This document shows positions 136 to 9,272 of a stretch of DNA of 59,759 nt, in pieces. Source of the DNA: an uncultured Oscillospiraceae bacterium (GTDB lineage: Bacteria > Bacillota > Clostridia > Oscillospirales > Oscillospiraceae). The stretch lies in assembly GCA_947630345.1 (NCBI GenBank), contig CANRHF010000002.1:1-59759 (forward strand), given 5' to 3'. The position numbers and the translations under genes are program-made. The notes under the pieces are model-generated. The model worked only from the letters and a program-made list of their open reading frames with translations. It made no database searches and had not been told where the DNA came from. Position 1 is the stretch's first letter. Every line of letters begins with the position of its first letter.

Positions 136-1155
136 TCACCGATTTCCATACATCCTTTGATAATAATTCTGGTAATCGCCAGAGATGATCTCCTCCCACC
201 AAGTCTTGTGGTCGAGATACCACTGGATCGTCTTCCGGATGCCGTCGGCAAATTTCGTCTCAGGCAGCCAGCCCAGCTCGCTGTGGATCTTTGCCGGGTC
301 GATGGCGTAGCGCATATCGTGGCCCTTGCGGTCAGTGACGTAGGTGATGAGGCTCTCCGGTTTGCCAAGGGTTTTGCAGATCAGCTTCACGATGTCGATA
401 TTCCTCATCTCGTTATGCCCGCCGATATTATACACTTCACCGTCCCGGCCCTCGCGGAGGATGCGGTCAATCGCCTTGCAGTGATCCTCAACGTAGAGCC
501 AGTCGCGGACGTTTTCGCCCTTACCGTAAACCGGAAGGGGCTTGTCGTTCAGCGCGTTCGCAATCATCAGCGGGATCAGCTTCTCCGGGAATTGGTACGG
601 ACCGTAGTTATTCGAGCAGCGGGAGATTGTCACCGGCAGGCCAAACGTGCGGTGGTACGCGAGGACGAGCAGGTCGGCGCTCGCCTTCGAGGCGCTATAT
701 GGGCTGGAGGCGTGGATCGGCGTGGTCTCTGTGAAAAACAGATCCGGCCGGTCCAGGGGCAAATCGCCGTAAACCTCGTCCGTCCCCACCTGATGAAACC
801 TTTGGATGCCGTATTTCCGGCAGGCGTCCATCAGCACCTGCGTGCCGAGAATGTTCGTCTGGAGGAATACCTCCGGGTTCTCGATGCTGCGGTCGACGTG
901 GCTCTCCGCCGCGAAGTTGACAACCACGTCGGGCTTCTCTTCTTCAAAAAGCTTATACACGCCCTCTCGGTCGCAGATGTCGAGCTTTACAAAGCGGAAG
1001 TTCGGGTCATCCATCACATCTTTCAGCGTACTGAGATTACCCGCGTAGGTCAGCTTGTCCAAGCAGACGATTCGGTCCTCCGGGTGATTTTCCAGCATGA
1101 AAAAGATGAAATTCGAGCCGATGAATCCGGCGCCGCCGGTCACGAGAATAGTCAT
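136..1155 (-). CDS. rfbB: dTDP-glucose 4,6-dehydratase
   Basis: [16 protein letters not shown] Rossmann start; [23 protein letters not shown] and [18 protein letters not shown] are RmlB motifs. Confidence 0.95.
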
Positions 1156-2030
1156 TTTGTTTCCTCCGCAAGAGACATCAGATACTGTCCGTATTCTGTC
1201 ATTTTCAGTTCTTCGCCGAGCGTTCTCATCTGTTCAGTCGTGATGAATCCGCGCCGCCACGCAATCTCTTCAATGCACGAGATATAGAACCCCTGCATCT
1301 CCTGCACCGCTTTCACAAAGCTGCTCGCCTTGTGCATTCCGTTGGGGGATCCCGTATCCAGCCACGCCATTCCGCGGCCCATCAGCGTCACACGCAATTT
1401 TCCCCGCCGCAGATATTCGTTATTCACAGCGGTGATCTCCAGCTCTCCCCGCGCGGAGGGCTGCACATGCTTCGCAATCTCCACGACCTCGTTATTGTAG
1501 AAATACAGTCCAGGCACGGCGTAATTGGACTTCGGTTCCTGTGGCTTTTCCTCAATGGACAGGACGCGATTGTTTTTATCAAATTCCACAACGCCGAACT
1601 CTCTCGGATCCTTCACCGGGTAGCCGAAGATCGTCGCGCCATCCTTTTCCGCCTGCCGCTTCGCCTCGTCCAGTGTAGTCGAGAAGAACTGCCCGTAAAA
1701 CACATTGTCGCCCAGAATAAGGCACACGCTGTCCTTCCCGATGAACCCCTCGCCGAGGATAAACGCATCCGCCAGGCCCCGGGGCCTGTCCTGCACCGCG
1801 TATGTAAACCGTACACCGATCCGCGAGCCGTCGCCGAGGAGCTTTTTGTAATGCTCAATATCCTCGGGCGTCGAGATAATGAGGATCTCGCGGATCCTTG
1901 CAAGAAGCAGGATCGACAGGGGATAATAGATCAGCGGCTTGTCGTAGACGGGCAAAAGCTGTTTGGAAACGGAAATCGTGTTTGGGTAGAGCCTTGTCCC
2001 TTTGCCACCTGCTAGAATGATGCCTTTCAT
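1152..2030 (-). CDS. rfbA: glucose-1-phosphate thymidylyltransferase (trimmed to [16 protein letters not shown] start)
   Basis: [43 protein letters not shown] upstream of the ATG at 2030; overlaps rfbB start. Confidence 0.95.
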
Positions 2031-2166: not shown

Positions 2167-3345
2167 TCATCTTTCATGGCGCAAATATTCTTTTACGTTT
2201 TCAAAATACGCGATCGCGTGCTCGATGCACACATCCATGTTGTAATACTTAAATTCCGCGAGCCGGCCGCAGAGGAACAGATTCTTATACTTTGCAGCCT
2301 CCTCAAGATACCGGCCATATAGCGCCTCGCTCTCCTGGGTCACCACCGGGTAGTACGGAATATTCCCGACCTTGGCGTTCGGATCGTACCAGAGCGGGTA
2401 CTCGGTAGCGACGACGCTTCCTCGCGCGCCGCTGTCGTCAAACATGATCTTCCTGTATTCCGTACTGCGCGTTTTCCCTTCCGCCTGCGGGAAGGAAATG
2501 ATCTCCGACGGCAAGACATCCTCCGATTCGCTGGATTCGTACCGGATATCCAACGAACGGTACGGGAGACTGCCGAATTTGTACTGGAACAGCTCGTCGA
2601 TCGGCCCGGTGAAGATCAGGAGCTCCACCTCATCGGCGTCATAGGTGATCTTGTTTGTCCGCTCCTCCAGGGCAATGTGCTCAAGCGCGTCCGTCTCCAA
2701 GCGAACGTCGATGTTCGGATGATCCAGCATATTTCGGAAGATCTCCGTAAACCCTTTCTTGGGCAGGTACTGAAAATCCTTATTCAGGTATCGCTCGTCG
2801 TAATTCATCGCGAACGGGACCCGTTCCAATACATATTTGTCGATCTTATTGACGTCCGTCCCCCACATTTTAGAGGTGTAGGTCCGAAACGCCTTTTCAA
2901 ACAGCAGCGTCCCAAATTCGGAAACTTCCCGGTCCGGGCAGTCAACAATCTGCAAAATCGGAACACGGTCGCTACCGGGAAAATTTTCCCGCAGTTTCCG
3001 CAGGACCGTCTCCGCCCGCTTCGCGCCGATCAGCTCCTGCACGGACTGAAAGTTGAACGGCAGACGGATATACTGTCCGTCTAGAAAGCTCAGGAGCTTC
3101 GTGTTATGCGGGAAAAGCTCCGCGTACTGGGACAGGTATTCGATGATCCAATATTTATTGGTGTTGAGAAAATGCGGTCCGTAGCGCTGCACGAGGATCC
3201 CGTGCTCGTCGTATTCATCGTACATATTTCCACCGATATGGCCGCGCTTTTCCACGACCTCCACTTTGCGGCCGCATTCCTCCGCAATCTTCCGCGCGAG
3301 GATGCTCCCCGAAAAGCCCGTGCCGACAACAATGATCCTACCCAT
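2167..3345 (-). CDS. glf: UDP-galactopyranose mutase
   Basis: MGRIIVVGTGFSGSILARKIAEE FAD-binding start; GPHFLNTNKYWI; CGRLAEFKYYNMDVCIEHA C-terminal Glf motif. Confidence 0.93.
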   Translation of the reverse strand: MGRIIVVGTGFSGSILARKIAEECGRKVEVVEKRGHIGGNMYDEYDEHGILVQRYGPHFLNTNKYWIIEYLSQYAELFPHNTKLLSFLDGQYIRLPFNFQSVQELIGAKRAETVLRKLRENFPGSDRVPILQIVDCPDREVSEFGTLLFEKAFRTYTSKMWGTDVNKIDKYVLERVPFAMNYDERYLNKDFQYLPKKGFTEIFRNMLDHPNIDVRLETDALEHIALEERTNKITYDADEVELLIFTGPIDELFQYKFGSLPYRSLDIRYESSESEDVLPSEIISFPQAEGKTRSTEYRKIMFDDSGARGSVVATEYPLWYDPNAKVGNIPYYPVVTQESEALYGRYLEEAAKYKNLFLCGRLAEFKYYNMDVCIEHAIAYFENVKEYLRHER

Positions 3346-3356
3346 GTTTTTTCTCC

Positions 3357-4271
3357 TTACAAGTTTTCTTTGACCCACGCCGCTGTTTTCAGGATGCTTT
3401 CCCGGAAATCCGCCGTACACTCGAAGCCGGTGTCGCGGTAAAGCGCATCGAGGTCGATCTTGCTGTAATTTCGGCTGCTGTTGTCGTCCGGGTACGCCCC
3501 AAACAGCAGCGGTACACCCGGCGCGACGATCTGTCCAATGTCCGTCACATATGCGCGGAAGGTGCGGAGCGTCCTGTGCCCCACATAATAACTGCGAAGA
3601 TGAACGCCCCGCTCCCCTATGGCGTAGAACGCACGGGCAATGTCGTCGATATAAATGAAGTCATACGGAATGTTTCCTTCAATGAGGCGGGGACTTTCTC
3701 CCCGGACCAGCTGCTTCAGCACGACGTTTGCCAGCATCATGGAGCGATTGTTTTGGCCGTAAGACATGGCGGTCAGCCCGGCGCTGTACTCGATGCCGGA
3801 ATTCGCGGCGATCGTTTTGCAGACGATCTCGGCGGCGGTCTTTGCGGCGGAGTAGATACAGGTATATCGGGGCGACTGCCCGCTCATATCGAGATGGTCC
3901 GCCACTTCGATCTCATTGTATGTACCTGCAAAGACAAACTTTTTGCAGCCGATTTGGACCGCTTCGGTGATGGCATCCCCCGCGCTCGCCGCGTTGGAAA
4001 GCTGAAGACGGTAATCCTTGAACGGTTCTCCGAACACGCCCTGCCACGCGAAGTGATAGAACACATCAACGTCATCGCAGATCATCTCATGGAGATGGTC
4101 ATACTTTGTAAAGTCCGCGACCACAGGATGGAAGTTCGCTTTTCCGCTATGCCTTGCAAGCGCTCGCTCGGAGATATCCACCCCGTAGACGGTAACGCCT
4201 TTATTGAGCAGAAGTTCTGTCAGCGCGCCGCCGATGAACCCGCCCGCGCCTGTGACAATGGCTGTTTTCAT
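3357..4271 (-). CDS. NAD-dependent epimerase/dehydratase (SDR), candidate nucleotide-sugar 4-ketoreductase/epimerase
   Basis: MKTAIVTGAGGFIGGALTELLL GxxGxxG; YSAAKTAAEIV YxxxK; start codon overlaps the stop of the upstream gene (ATGA). Confidence 0.85.
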   Translation of the reverse strand: MKTAIVTGAGGFIGGALTELLLNKGVTVYGVDISERALARHSGKANFHPVVADFTKYDHLHEMICDDVDVFYHFAWQGVFGEPFKDYRLQLSNAASAGDAITEAVQIGCKKFVFAGTYNEIEVADHLDMSGQSPRYTCIYSAAKTAAEIVCKTIAANSGIEYSAGLTAMSYGQNNRSMMLANVVLKQLVRGESPRLIEGNIPYDFIYIDDIARAFYAIGERGVHLRSYYVGHRTLRTFRAYVTDIGQIVAPGVPLLFGAYPDDNSSRNYSKIDLDALYRDTGFECTADFRESILKTAAWVKENL

Positions 4272-5227
4272 GCAGCCACCGCCTTTCGAGCGGCAGCCAG
4301 CAGGATAACTTTATATTCAGTTACCCCCCCCCGGGTATTATTTGGGGTCTGTGATTTAAGCCAATTTGCCGTTTTCAGAATGCTCTCCTTAAAATCGGAT
4401 TGACACTCGAAGCCGACCGGGATTTCTTTCGTCAGCTCTGTGTAATCTATGTATGTATTCTCCGGCATTTCGCCAAAAACGAAACGCCTTTCAGGACAGA
4501 TTGCTGCGCCCATATCCGTGATTTTTTCTCTGAACGTCGAAATGCTTTTGTGGCCTATATAGTACTCATTGTACGGTTTTCCTTTTTCCGCAAGACAAAT
4601 CAAGCCCCTAACTGTATCGTCAATGTATACCCAGTCGTTCGGATTATTGCCCTGAACAAGCTTAAGCGGCAGACTGTTTTGCATGGCGTTTATAATAGTG
4701 TTTACAGCCTTTCTGGAGCGATCGCCCACACCGTAGGTGTTTGTTAAAACTGCTTTGACATACTCCGTTCCGGCCTGCGAGCATATCTGCGCGCAGATAT
4801 CCCCCGCCGCGCGTTTTGCTATACCGTATGTGTTGATGGAAAAATCTCCTGTCGTCTCGCTTTTCATGTGCTCATAACTCGAACTTACGAAGACAAATCT
4901 TTTGCAGATATTCAAAGCATCTTTGCATACCTTAGCAGCGGTTCTAATGTTATCCGTCTGCAATTCAACATCATATAAATCCTTGCCCCCAAGTGTGCCG
5001 CCCCATGAAAGATAAAACATCACATCAGCTATTTCTGGGATTCTTTCCGAAAGATTTTCAGCGGTTAAATCTATAGCAATAGGAGCAAAATTTTCGAACT
5101 GACAGAGCGGGTCAAGATATTCAGCCTTTATGTCCGCGCCGTAGACCTTACACCCCAGATTCAGGAGTGCTTTCGTCAGCGCGCCGCCAATAAATCCGCC
5201 CGCGCCTGTTACAATGGCTGTTTTCAT
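4268..5227 (-). CDS. NAD-dependent epimerase/dehydratase (SDR) with a C-terminal tail encoded after a G9 tract
   Basis: MKTAIVTGAGGFIGGALTKALL; YGIAKRAAGDIC; G9 at 4324-4332 followed by tail VTEYKVILLAAARKAVAA. Confidence 0.85.
   Translation of the reverse strand: MKTAIVTGAGGFIGGALTKALLNLGCKVYGADIKAEYLDPLCQFENFAPIAIDLTAENLSERIPEIADVMFYLSWGGTLGGKDLYDVELQTDNIRTAAKVCKDALNICKRFVFVSSSYEHMKSETTGDFSINTYGIAKRAAGDICAQICSQAGTEYVKAVLTNTYGVGDRSRKAVNTIINAMQNSLPLKLVQGNNPNDWVYIDDTVRGLICLAEKGKPYNEYYIGHKSISTFREKITDMGAAICPERRFVFGEMPENTYIDYTELTKEIPVGFECQSDFKESILKTANWLKSQTPNNTRGGVTEYKVILLAAARKAVAA
4324..4332 (-). repeat. G9 homopolymer (C9 on + strand) inside the 3' end of the SDR gene
   Basis: Direct reading: tta-ccccccccc-gggtatt on + strand. 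Confidence 0.97.
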
Positions 5228-5238
5228 GGAATCCTCCT

Positions 5239-5793
5239 TCAGAAATTCACATCACTGTCTTTCAAAAACGGTGCGTTTCTGTCTTTCTCGGAAACGATCG
5301 GCGTGATGTCTCCCCAGTCAATCCTGATCTCCGGGTCGTTCCACGCGATCGCTCGGTCGTATTTAGGCTCGTATAGCTCGTCCACTTTGTACTGCACTTC
5401 CGTATCATCGACAAGTGACATGCAGATGTGTCCGAACCCTCTCGGAATATAGATTTGCTGCTTTTTCACATCGTCTAATACAACAGAAACGTACTGCTTG
5501 TAGGTGGGCGACGCTTTCCGCAAATCGACCGCAATATCGAGGATCTTCCCTCTCGTACAGCGCAGCAGCTTTGCCTGCGCTTTCGGAGCATTTTGAAAAT
5601 GGATGCCTCGAACAGTATGCTTTTTCAGGTTGCGCAGGTGGTTATCCTGCACAAAGACATTGTCGATTCCAAATTCAGCCATCGTCCGCTTCGAATAGGA
5701 CTCCATGTAATAACCGCGATAATCCTCAAAAACCTTCGGCGTAAAGAGGATCACTTCGGGAATGGCGAGTCGCTCTGCTTTCATTCTTTTCAC
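5239..5793 (-). CDS. rfbC: dTDP-4-dehydrorhamnose 3,5-epimerase family protein
   Basis: VFEDYRGYYMESYSKRTMAEFGI, FVQDNHLRNLKKHTVRGIHFQ, IYIPRGFGHICMSL: RmlC cupin motifs. Confidence 0.92.
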   Translation of the reverse strand: MKRMKAERLAIPEVILFTPKVFEDYRGYYMESYSKRTMAEFGIDNVFVQDNHLRNLKKHTVRGIHFQNAPKAQAKLLRCTRGKILDIAVDLRKASPTYKQYVSVVLDDVKKQQIYIPRGFGHICMSLVDDTEVQYKVDELYEPKYDRAIAWNDPEIRIDWGDITPIVSEKDRNAPFLKDSDVNF

Positions 5794-5826
5794 CCTTTCA
5801 TCAATAAATCACCTAGACCCTCTTGG

Positions 5827-6858
5827 TCAAGCTGCTAATAAGTGAGGACTGGAATGTTCATTGATGAAAGTTTGAATTCTATTATGGATATGGGGTATAT
5901 CCCTGCTTTTTTCAAAAGATAAACTGACTAAGTATCTAAACCCCCCCCCAGCAATTTTAGCGGGTTTCTTCTGAGAATTCATCCATGCCAAAATAGATCG
6001 GCGTACCGTAATCCCCTGCAATTTCAGCTTTGAGGAATCAAACACTGTATTTCCCGATTCGATCTTGCGGTCAATCTCCGGGTACTCAACATAGTCAATC
6101 CCCACCCCGTACAAGGGCGCAATTAGCTCTGCCAATTCCTTTAGGCTAAGGTCGTCTCCTCCAATGTTATAAATGTCGTTTACGCACTTCTCGGAAACTG
6201 CCCCATCGATCAAGTTGTTGCACAGATCTTCAATATGTGTAAACGTGCGCCTCACTTCTCCGTTTCCGTACAGTCGGATATTCTCGCCCTTCATCGCTCT
6301 ATTCCGCATGAACTCTACCGTTCCGTAAGAAGACGCCCCCGGGATCAGAGATCCATAGGGAACACAGATCCTGAAAATGCAATACCGCACACCGTATACG
6401 CGGCTGAACTGCTCCAGATACTGTTCACAGGCAAATTTATTGATCGAGTAAATGGTTCGAAATTCCTTTTCGTCCGTCTCTTTCAAGGGCATGCTGCTGC
6501 CTTTATAGACTAACCTTGTCGAAGGAAAAACGATCTTTGCTTTAGATCCCTGTTCCCTATAAGCTTCGAGGACATGAAGCAACGCGCGCTCGTTGATGTC
6601 AATAAATGTATCATAGTCGTCAAAACCTGCAGCTGAACCGGTCTTCCCGATGAACATAAAGACAACATCGGCATCTAGGTCTATATTGGAAACAGACGCT
6701 CTATCCAGAATCTGTACTTTTTCATATGCCTGTTCTCCATCTGCGTGCGTATCAGCGCGGTCGTAGAGCCGGAGCAGTACGTTTGGGAACCTTCTTTTCA
6801 AAACGACAAGAAGATTTCGCGCGATATAACTGTTCGCTCCAATAACCGTAACTTTCAT
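5827..6858 (-). CDS. NAD-dependent epimerase/dehydratase (SDR) with a C-terminal tail encoded after a G9 tract (start trimmed to MKVTVIGANSYIARN)
   Basis: MKVTVIGANSYIARNLLVVL; YSINKFACEQYLE; G9 at 5941-5949 encodes AGGGF then the tail. Confidence 0.85.
   Translation of the reverse strand: MKVTVIGANSYIARNLLVVLKRRFPNVLLRLYDRADTHADGEQAYEKVQILDRASVSNIDLDADVVFMFIGKTGSAAGFDDYDTFIDINERALLHVLEAYREQGSKAKIVFPSTRLVYKGSSMPLKETDEKEFRTIYSINKFACEQYLEQFSRVYGVRYCIFRICVPYGSLIPGASSYGTVEFMRNRAMKGENIRLYGNGEVRRTFTHIEDLCNNLIDGAVSEKCVNDIYNIGGDDLSLKELAELIAPLYGVGIDYVEYPEIDRKIESGNTVFDSSKLKLQGITVRRSILAWMNSQKKPAKIAGGGFRYLVSLSFEKSRDIPHIHNRIQTFINEHSSPHLLAA
5941..5949 (-). repeat. G9 homopolymer (C9 on + strand) inside the 3' end of the SDR gene
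   Basis: Direct reading: ctaaa-ccccccccc-agcaatttt on + strand. Confidence 0.97.
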
Positions 6859-6892: not shown

Positions 6893-7906
6893 CTATTGGT
6901 TTTTAACCGCATCGACAAGCTCCGCCTGCCGCGCGATCGTCTCATAATTCATTTCTCTTGTTTTTTCGTCCGCAACACACTTACAGAAATGCTCTATGGA
7001 CTTTCTGAACGTGTCGTCCGCGCTAAGCTTTACGGTCTCAGTCTCGTTGCCGATTGTAATTTCCGCTGTTGGCTCGAAACCGTCCGGCGCGGTCAAAATT
7101 CGACCTGTTCTCAAAAAGCCCTTGCTTCCCCAGACCTCCAGCTCGCACTTGTAGCTGTTGTCCATGCCGAACGCGATCTGCGCCGTCACGCCCGCGTCGT
7201 TCACCATCGCCGCGCTGCCGTAGATGTCCACGTCAAAATCGGGGGTGCAGTTGAGGCGGGAATAGACTACCCGCGCCGTCTCGCCCAGCAGCATGGCTGC
7301 CAATTTCAGCGTATATCCGCCGCAGTCGAGAAGCGCGCCGCCGCCCAGGGCTTTGTTGTAGCGGAAGTCGTTCTTCGCGCGCTGTGGGAACCCGAACGCG
7401 ATTCGGTACAGCCGCACGTCGCCGAGCCTGCCGCTCTTGACGATATCCTGTATCTCGCCGATCTGTTTGTGGAACGCGAACATATAATTCTCGTGAACAG
7501 CGAGACGCTTCGCTCCGGCGAGATCGATCAGCTCTTTCGTATCTTTCTCAGAGGTAGTAGAGGGCTTTTCGAGGAAAATGTGCTTACCGTGCTCCAGCGC
7601 CGCCTTTGCCCACCTGAAATGCAGCGCCGGCGGCAACGGCAGATAGACCGCGTCCACATCCGGCGAGGACAGGAGCGCTTCATAACTGTCGAAGACCGTG
7701 CCGCCGCAGACGTCGGCGAAGGACTGAGCTTTCTTCGCCTCACCGGCAATCACCGCCGGGTCCGGCGTCCGGTCCCCAAACCACTCTTTTTCGTCGGCGT
7801 GGGCCACACCGACGTACTCGGCGCAGTCGCACTTTTGAATCGCGGGCAGGAAGCGCCGGAACGCGATCTCAGAGGGACAGATGATGCCGATTTTTACTTT
7901 TTTCAT
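6893..7906 (-). CDS. Gfo/Idh/MocA-family oxidoreductase; candidate NDP-hexose 3-ketoreductase
   Basis: KVKIGIICPSEIAFRRFLPAIQ; DAVYLPLPPALHFRWAKAALEHGKHIFLEKPSTT (EKP motif). Confidence 0.88.
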   Translation of the reverse strand: MKKVKIGIICPSEIAFRRFLPAIQKCDCAEYVGVAHADEKEWFGDRTPDPAVIAGEAKKAQSFADVCGGTVFDSYEALLSSPDVDAVYLPLPPALHFRWAKAALEHGKHIFLEKPSTTSEKDTKELIDLAGAKRLAVHENYMFAFHKQIGEIQDIVKSGRLGDVRLYRIAFGFPQRAKNDFRYNKALGGGALLDCGGYTLKLAAMLLGETARVVYSRLNCTPDFDVDIYGSAAMVNDAGVTAQIAFGMDNSYKCELEVWGSKGFLRTGRILTAPDGFEPTAEITIGNETETVKLSADDTFRKSIEHFCKCVADEKTREMNYETIARQAELVDAVKNQ

Positions 7907-7907
7907 A

Positions 7908-9272
7908 TCACCACTCCAATACCGACAAAAGATTTCTAAGCTGGATATTCAGGCAGTTGTTGACCTTCACAAGTGCGCCGAGAGTCTTATAGTTCGTCCA
8001 GAAATACCCTTCCGGGGGCGCGGGCAACTCGTCCGCCTCGACTTCCACCACGACGTTTCGGTTCTGCTCGTGATAGAACCGCCCCCCCTCCTCGGAAAGC
8101 AGCGTGTCGAACTTGACGCCCTTCCCGGTCTTCAGGTGCGCGTCGAACAGTTCATCCACCGCAGTGTCCTTCGCTTCGTCGTGGATATACTCCCGCTGCA
8201 CCGACGGCCCCAGCTCGATCTTGTCGAAGCACCCGACCTCCGGCGTCGCGCGGACGAGAAATTCCCGAACGCCACGATAAACGCGGGTCAGCAGACCGAA
8301 CGTGGCGATCCCCGCCGCCTCAAACAGCGGCTGGCGCCAGTGCCGGACCTCCCGCCCCTCGATCTCGATGTCGCAGAACACAACCTTGAAGCTGTACGGC
8401 TCCTTGCAGACAAATTCCCCGTTTCGCGTCTCCCATTTTTCGAGGGAAAACAGCGGGACGAGCCGCCGCTCGCTCTCATCGAACATTTTGTAATTGTTGA
8501 TGTACTGATAGATCTCCGAAAGATTGTCCCTTCCCCCGCCCAGCACGGAGCGCAGCAATGCGGCGTCCGTAAACTCGCTGAGATGCTCCTCCAGCGGCAG
8601 ACAGGACAGCACCGTTCGCGTATCCATGTTGACGAGGTTGTCCTCACGCATGAGCGCTTTGATTTGCGGCATCGTCATCCACCTGTGCGACGGCAGCACC
8701 TCGACATCCTCATTTTCGGCGAGTTCGATGATGATGTTCCGGTTGCGCTTGCCGAGAAACCGGGACGACTGCTCCGACTGGATCTGGTCAACGACGATCC
8801 TATAGTTCGACGCATGGATAAAGTAGTCGAGATAGGCGGGTTTCGCGCCGCCGTGCTTTTGCGTAAAGTTCGACTTCGTCGCCTGGATTGTCGGGGAGAG
8901 CTGGATCTTGTTGATGTTTCCCGGCTCGATCTTCGCCTGCATGAGATAGTGCATCTCGCCGCCGATCCGCTTGCGGATGATGCCGAGATAGCCGATCTCG
9001 TTCTGCAGGAGGGTGGGCTGCTCGAGGAGCGTCCTTTCCCCTTCCGTCACGCGAAGCCCCGCGATCTGGAAGAAGCTCCCCGCGGGATTGCGGACCGTGC
9101 CCGATTCGCTGTCGTAATACCAAGGCGCGCATTGATCCAGCGTTGTTTTGTCAATCCGCACATGGATCGAGGCGTTGCGATTCTTGATCCAGGAAAAGAT
9201 ATCCGCCGTCGGGTGTAAAGGCATACCCGCTGTTTCCATACTATGATCGTTAAATGGAATAGAATGTGCCAT
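7908..9272 (-). CDS. NDP-hexose 2,3-dehydratase family protein (TylX3/EvaA/SpnO type)
   Basis: Internal duplication typical of the family: IQLSPTIQATKSNFTQKHGGAKPAYLDYF ... LLSEEGGRFYHEQNRNVVVEVE ... GYFWTNYKTLGALVKVNNCLNIQLRNLLSVL. Confidence 0.9.
   Translation of the reverse strand: MAHSIPFNDHSMETAGMPLHPTADIFSWIKNRNASIHVRIDKTTLDQCAPWYYDSESGTVRNPAGSFFQIAGLRVTEGERTLLEQPTLLQNEIGYLGIIRKRIGGEMHYLMQAKIEPGNINKIQLSPTIQATKSNFTQKHGGAKPAYLDYFIHASNYRIVVDQIQSEQSSRFLGKRNRNIIIELAENEDVEVLPSHRWMTMPQIKALMREDNLVNMDTRTVLSCLPLEEHLSEFTDAALLRSVLGGGRDNLSEIYQYINNYKMFDESERRLVPLFSLEKWETRNGEFVCKEPYSFKVVFCDIEIEGREVRHWRQPLFEAAGIATFGLLTRVYRGVREFLVRATPEVGCFDKIELGPSVQREYIHDEAKDTAVDELFDAHLKTGKGVKFDTLLSEEGGRFYHEQNRNVVVEVEADELPAPPEGYFWTNYKTLGALVKVNNCLNIQLRNLLSVLEW

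Follow-up and report, generated by a model that had tools for sequence, protein, structure and literature searches.

A pair of G9 tracts in a deoxysugar operon of an uncultured Oscillospiraceae bacterium probably forms a system of phase-variable translational coupling, in which slippage at each tract gates the next gene and leaves the upstream enzyme intact. The tracts lie in the window (the whole stretch of 59,759 nucleotides analysed here) as two C9 runs on the plus strand, which correspond to G9 in the operon on the minus strand (Table 1). An earlier note on this DNA had reported a C9 run with a second tract about 1.6 kb off in the same operon, and both were located. Each run is long enough to slip, and its length determines which frame is read into the leader of the following gene. 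The same arrangement of tract, frames and overlapping stop and start recurs in related operons, and the ribosome-binding site (RBS) that follows is, by calculation, unusually closed.

Table 1. Features of the deoxysugar operon and its two tracts (positions in the window)
Feature	Positions	Strand	Basis or remark
rmlB, dTDP-glucose 4,6-dehydratase	136..1155	-	TIGR01181, 502 bits
rmlA-like nucleotidyltransferase	1152..2030	-	similarity by eye; gene order conserved in relatives
glf, UDP-galactopyranose mutase	2167..3342	-	TIGR00031
SDR2, extended SDR, proposed target of tract 1	3357..4271	-	natural C-terminus, without tract
SDR1, extended SDR, carries tract 1	4268..5227	-	domain match and C-terminus comparison
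Leader 1, G9 frame to TGA overlapping SDR2 ATG (ATGA, 4268-4271)	4268..4323	-	frame reading
Tract 1 RBS hairpin, arms TGGCTGCCGCT (4289-4299) and GGCGGTGGCTG (4273-4283)	4273..4299	-	p = 0.018
Tract 1, G9 (mRNA sense)	4324..4332	-	beyond natural end of SDR1
rfbC/rmlC, dTDP-4-dehydrorhamnose 3,5-epimerase family	5239..5784	-	TIGR01221, 203 bits (cut-off 155.75)
3' arm TTTATTGATGAAAG of 14-bp helix, with rfbC Shine-Dalgarno GAAAG	5795..5808	-	predicted pairing
5' arm CTTTCATCAATGAA of 14-bp helix	5857..5870	-	inside G9 tail, past stops of the other frames
Tract 2 tail in G9 frame, F + 36 residues	5827..5940	-	frame reading; stop TGA at 5829-5827
Tract 2, G9 (mRNA sense)	5941..5949	-	directly 3' of P0001 SDR domain
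P0001, extended SDR (epimerase/ketoreductase), carries tract 2	5827..6858	-	PF01370, E = 4e-28
Gfo/Idh/MocA oxidoreductase	6893..7906	-	domain match
NDP-hexose 2,3-dehydratase, EvaA family	7908..9272	-	PF03559, E = 7e-124; PDB 4j7g (EvaA), E = 2e-76

Transcribed from the minus strand, the order is 2,3-dehydratase, Gfo/Idh, P0001, tract 2, RmlC, SDR1, tract 1, SDR2, glf, rmlA and rmlB. NDP-hexose 2,3-dehydratases of the EvaA family stand at the start of the 2,6-dideoxyhexose pathway. Here the enzyme is encoded together with RmlA, RmlB and reductases, as in EvaA-family dTDP-2,6-dideoxyhexose clusters, and from established pathway knowledge we take the operon to encode a dTDP-2,6-dideoxyhexose pathway. 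Its place in that pathway makes the Gfo/Idh/MocA oxidoreductase the probable 3-ketoreductase, and for the SDRs a role as 4-ketoreductases or epimerases is most likely.

That two such tracts are hard to explain by chance, as was originally argued, does not hold for base composition: dinucleotide shuffling of the window leads one to expect 1.92 runs of the C9 type against 2 present, so two runs in 60 kb are not unusual by composition alone and an excess inside the window is ruled out. The argument stands for the genome and for the layout in relatives. The 1.97-Mb draft genome contains only four G/C runs of at least 8, and just two of these reach 9 or more: tracts 1 and 2, which share one operon at a distance of 1.6 kb.

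The reading frames around the tracts are as first described. At tract 2 the minus strand reads GCT GGG GGG GGG TTT AGA, which leaves the G9 frame open; G10 gives GGGV-stop, 5 nt past the tract, and G8 or G11 gives GGG(G)LDT-stop, 13 nt past it. The open tail, previously given as 35 residues, is F plus 36 residues after the three glycines. At tract 1 the stops of the two other frames come 3 and 7 nt past the tract. Both assembled tracts are thus in the open (ON) frame. The ON frame of tract 1 ends on the next start (ATGA), and that of tract 2 neither overlaps nor adjoins one: its stop lies 33 nt ahead of the rfbC GTG (5793) and 42 nt ahead of the ATG (5784), a small correction to the 34 nt given earlier for the rfbC start. 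The ATG is the better placed of the two, behind the Shine-Dalgarno sequence GAAAGGG.

A pattern scan of genome contigs with P0001 returned no relatives, and the 2,3-dehydratase served as a useful bait instead. Scanned against assembled genomes, it identified 31 loci at 58-84% identity, nearly all in metagenome-assembled genomes with isolate names beginning 'Lapin', which, judging from the isolate titles, are probably from rabbit gut. The bins in which the loci lie bear labels such as Oscillospiraceae, Lachnospiraceae and Ruminococcus, and among 136 genomes from the window's genus only 2 contain the dehydratase gene; this distribution suggests that the gene has spread horizontally.

Many of the related operons carry coding-strand G runs at gene ends, mostly G8-G10 with a few G7. 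In 20 of 24 junctions two frames are shut no more than 19 nt past the tract. The long frame extends for 35-114 nt (12-37 codons) and usually ends on the next start or shortly before it, with overlaps of the type ATGA, TGATG, TAATG or TAAGTG. Tested against shuffled leaders, this arrangement of frames gives p = 9e-8 when the junctions are combined, a value that pools homologous operons; because the junction sequences are related, it and the other pooled p-values are indicative and not fully independent. Homologues of P0001 in three loci (L109, L121 and L132) all have a G tract directly after them, and in L121 and L132 RmlC follows the tract, as in the window, behind leaders of unrelated sequence. 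A locus from another family of the order (L252) contains two SDR-G9-leader junctions. Relatives therefore strongly back the layout first noted in the window, a tract after the domain with two frames shut at once and one long.

The next RBS is predicted to be unusually closed at these junctions. Three structure measures were tried (accessibility, complementarity and opening energy), of which the first is the least favourable. The mean computed cost of opening the RBS is 18.6 kcal/mol at tract junctions (n = 26) and 7.7 kcal/mol at tract-free junctions taken from the same operons (n = 82; p = 4e-12), and the relief when the leader is occupied is 9.0 versus 3.2 kcal/mol (p = 1e-5). The difference in cost persists when starts of the same gene are compared, both for SDRs (16.6 with a tract, 9.3 without; p = 1e-4) and for RmlC (12.3 and 5.2; p = 0.002); relief in these same-gene sets is a trend only (p = 0.09 for SDR, 0.07 for RmlC). 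Complementarity to the RBS within the leader reaches p < 0.05 in 7 of 21 tract leaders and 3 of 82 controls. Accessibility of the RBS relative to shuffles is weak, with 5 of 24 junctions at p < 0.05. In the best hairpin family (L124/L125), a search for covariation yielded one compensatory pair in four sequences, not above shuffles, and in some L124 and L125 leaders two frames pass the hairpin.

Within the window, the two leaders appear to close the next RBS in different ways. At tract 2 the 14-bp stem formed by CTTTCATCAATGAA and TTTATTGATGAAAG is unusual against shuffled leaders (p = 0.003), the stop of the tail falls between its arms, and the cost of opening the RBS drops from 19.2 kcal/mol with the leader free to 7.6 kcal/mol with it occupied. 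Simple accessibility at this site rises from 0.20 to only 0.26-0.31 when the arm is masked, and the fold of the whole leader is not unusual (z = -1.4). Leader 1 has a more pronounced fold (z = -3.2). There, the RBS has an alternative pairing partner in the first codons of SDR2, and so the cost stays near 17 kcal/mol (17.2, or 16.9 with the leader removed). Since the leader gives no relief at tract 1, coupling at that junction must rest on the overlapping stop and start.

Comparison of C-termini indicates where the upstream protein ends. Tract-free SDR homologues end in ...ESILKTAxWVKENL, and tract-bearing ones run on for a few residues before the tract, which is thus placed just beyond the natural SDR end. 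This comparison, suggested in the earlier note as a way to see whether the gene normally ends at the tract, also bears out its view that the tract occupies an unconstrained spot past the SDR domain, since the tract-free homologues end upstream of the tract position. The tails vary among homologues except where they code for the RBS of the next gene.

A 3'-end tract after a functional domain, with C-termini that depend on the frame, is the hallmark of C-terminal phase variation, and the window has this arrangement. Swapping the SDR tail could change the activity, partner binding or stability of the enzyme, with any effect on the next gene incidental. The layout is that of the C-terminal class in Helicobacter canadensis (Snyder), one member of which is an epimerase/dehydratase gene that carries G14 close to its end, and if tract length changes, switching of the C-terminal frame is certain. 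We nevertheless consider this explanation unlikely, because the tract is past the natural end of the SDR, the tails differ among homologues apart from the RBS-coding positions, and the stop/start overlap and the unusually closed RBS would be left unexplained. The original proposal of two slippage-type tracts in one operon is supported; its emphasis on the tail is probably misplaced, and the next gene is the likely target.

Tract length differs between near-identical sequences. Among four leaders of nearly identical sequence that separate cytidylyltransferase-like genes, the two in locus L124 have G9 and G10 and the two in locus L125 have G8 and G10; these copies, and not the window's own leader, provide the length difference. 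Counted by hand from the stop positions, about 16 of the 24 assembled junctions are open and 8 are closed. Such lengths and frames fit slippage, and the tracts may well switch inside one population. We give little credence to the alternative that the tracts are fixed or neutral, through drift or assembly error, or that polymerase slippage yields a mixture of frames, in each case without heritable switching. Our evidence consists of assembled sequences, one genome per species, and two C9 runs per 60 kb match the compositional expectation; however, G/C runs of such length are avoided elsewhere in the genome, and they recur at like sites in many independent assemblies, with the same frame design and with differing lengths.

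The related operons have also been remodelled around these junctions. Those of L114 and L117 are about 99% identical, and the single SDR of L117 consists of the 5' part of SDR1 fused to the 3' part of SDR2, a recombination that removed the tract. In L252 (5780-6100, minus strand), the remnant of an SDR start stands after a G9 leader and is followed by RmlC, a trace of a deleted or shuffled gene. Chains of cytidylyltransferase-like genes (named by eye) are found at L124:3542-5810, L125:518-3502 and L253:71-1530, where every junction combines a G8-G10 tract with an RBS hairpin and a start codon of the overlapping or adjoining type.

Two further explanations concern the fate of the mRNA and of the upstream protein. 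If an early stop left the mRNA untranslated, transcription could terminate ahead of the downstream genes without any RNA structure being required. We attach very little weight to such polarity: the untranslated gap would be merely about 50-150 nt, the closed RBS would go unexplained, and Rho-dependent polarity is weak in the Firmicutes that have been studied. Polarity of this kind has been proposed for G tracts of Bifidobacterium pilus genes (PMC9187656). It is hardly credible that the ON tail, by resembling the end of an ssrA tag, causes the upstream SDR to be destroyed while the next one is coupled, for although the majority of tails, both window tails included, finish with AA (many with ..AVAA, ..AAA or ..LLAA), several end differently (..RGMRR, ..KEAV, ..GASL, ..KGVA), and in overlapping leaders these two residues follow from the RBS/start sequence GCG-GCA-TGA.

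We therefore favour translational coupling that is made phase-variable by the tract. Whatever the tract length, the core of the upstream SDR would be completed. In one frame of three, ribosomes would read the tail through the leader and past the 5' part of the structure that hides the RBS. With tract 1 ON, they would end on the overlapping start, and SDR2 would be translated; with tract 2 ON, they would end between the arms of the 14-bp hairpin, and RmlC would be translated. Given the distance of that stop from the rfbC ATG, coupling at tract 2 would act via hairpin opening and not via overlap. In the two other frames, ribosomes would stop 3-13 nt past the tract, the structure would stay shut and the next gene would be poorly translated. 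Slippage within a population would in this way alter expression and, in turn, the sugar: tract 2 would gate RmlC and hence 3,5-epimerisation, tract 1 would gate the second SDR, and the two together could allow a cell lineage as many as four sugar outcomes. The idea that the tracts produce several combinations of epimerase and RfbC expression is thereby modified: RfbC and epimerase output would probably be altered, but the upstream epimerase would not be switched off.

More tentatively, and with the balance of probability somewhat against it, one could envision a modular, horizontally spread switch that sits between successive sugar-tailoring enzymes, so that chained slips set the surface deoxysugar combinatorially. 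Its parts would be a G8-10 tract, a two-frame stop barrier, a short tail, an RBS-closing leader and an overlapping start, and its placements SDR to SDR, SDR to RmlC, and cytidylyltransferase to cytidylyltransferase. In such a scheme, for example, the D or L series would be chosen at tract 2 and the C4 reductase at tract 1.

G tracts are found in several other settings in the order. Across 394 of its genomes, GGGGGGGGTA occurs 395 times, versus 113 for the reversed control. Among 59 sampled sites, automatic and rough classification placed 8 between promoter hexamers, 10 in genes and 5 at gene 3' ends. A strict coupling-leader pattern was found at 5 places in 3 of the 394 genomes and at none in controls, which indicates that the exact motif is rare; a search for the tract 2 leader in viral contigs gave no match. 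In nine loci (L198, L200, L201, L202, L204, L223 and L233, near position 2000; L179 and L186), G9-G12 separates TTGACA from a hexamer resembling TATAAT and long ORFs follow, the longest of 645 codons; this is probably promoter-spacer phase variation in the same order. Around the two window tracts, promoter-like sites are at chance level only, with no -35/-10 pair above it, and a promoter-spacer model was rejected for them. Locus L211 (about 1986, minus strand, on a 4.0-Mb contig) has G12 shortly ahead of a phage tail/receptor-binding-like gene; it was discarded as a coupling leader because it lacks a long upstream frame and adjoins this phage-tail-like gene.

Other tracts are associated with acetyltransferases, long ORFs and a possible array. 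In L085 (3590-3598) and L110 (3089-3098), G9 and G10 lie inside hexapeptide-acetyltransferase-like reading frames (a putative family); O-acetylation of sugars may be phase-variable there in the conventional on/off manner. In other members of the genus, G9-G10 lies upstream of or at the start of ORFs of about 1050-1170 codons (L075:3520, L081:3379, L101:3597). In L167 and L168 (G441 contig C2, 72.9-93.6 kb), a stretch of about 21 kb has at least 10 GGGGGGGGTA sites on the same strand; the flanks of several are nearly identical, and the sites possibly form an array of G-tract-linked units.

Most known cases of poly-G phase variation come from Gram-negative pathogens adapted to a host, where it acts through promoters or the early reading frame. 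To our knowledge, surface-sugar switching in commensal gut Clostridia has been little studied. The tracts described here would spare their own gene yet gate the next, in such commensals, and if they do switch, cells of one gut population could show different surface sugars.

The closest known layout is C-terminal phase variation in H. canadensis, where the NAD-dependent epimerase/dehydratase gene HCAN_0165 (rfbB) has a G14 tract that varies from G11 to G17 in reads and yields tails of 4, 1 and 18 residues (PMC2823697). As in the window, a 3' poly-G tract leads into three frames with differing short tails. The H. canadensis tracts were read as altering the C-terminus or fusing genes, whereas in the window the open frame reaches the next start and the RBS is predicted to be closed; coupling is not proposed in that paper, in which the terms 'coupl' and 'downstream gene' are absent (PMC2823697). 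Examples of C-terminal phase variation in Neisseria gonorrhoeae were likewise read as protein changes or fusions (PMC5320596). The G tracts of Bifidobacterium breve sortase-pilus operons resemble those of the window in that they belong to a gut commensal, slip and affect downstream operon genes, but there the tract lies within the first gene and decides whether the protein of that gene is made intact, and its downstream effect was put down to polarity (PMC9187656). In promoter-spacer phase variation, too, G-tract length controls expression; the window tracts act, if at all, on translation. Termination-reinitiation coupling shares the ATGA and TGATG overlaps and the dependence of downstream on upstream translation, but is ordinarily constitutive, unlike the switch proposed here (PMC6728339, PMC12548453), and a 2025 review of translational coupling makes no mention of phase variation, frameshift or homopolymers (PMC12548453). 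Our literature search, with subscription papers and preprints outside its scope, found no report in which a slippage tract and translational coupling are combined. Coupling to the next gene would thus be the new element relative to H. canadensis, and it offers a second reading of the 3'-end tracts reported in Helicobacter and Neisseria.
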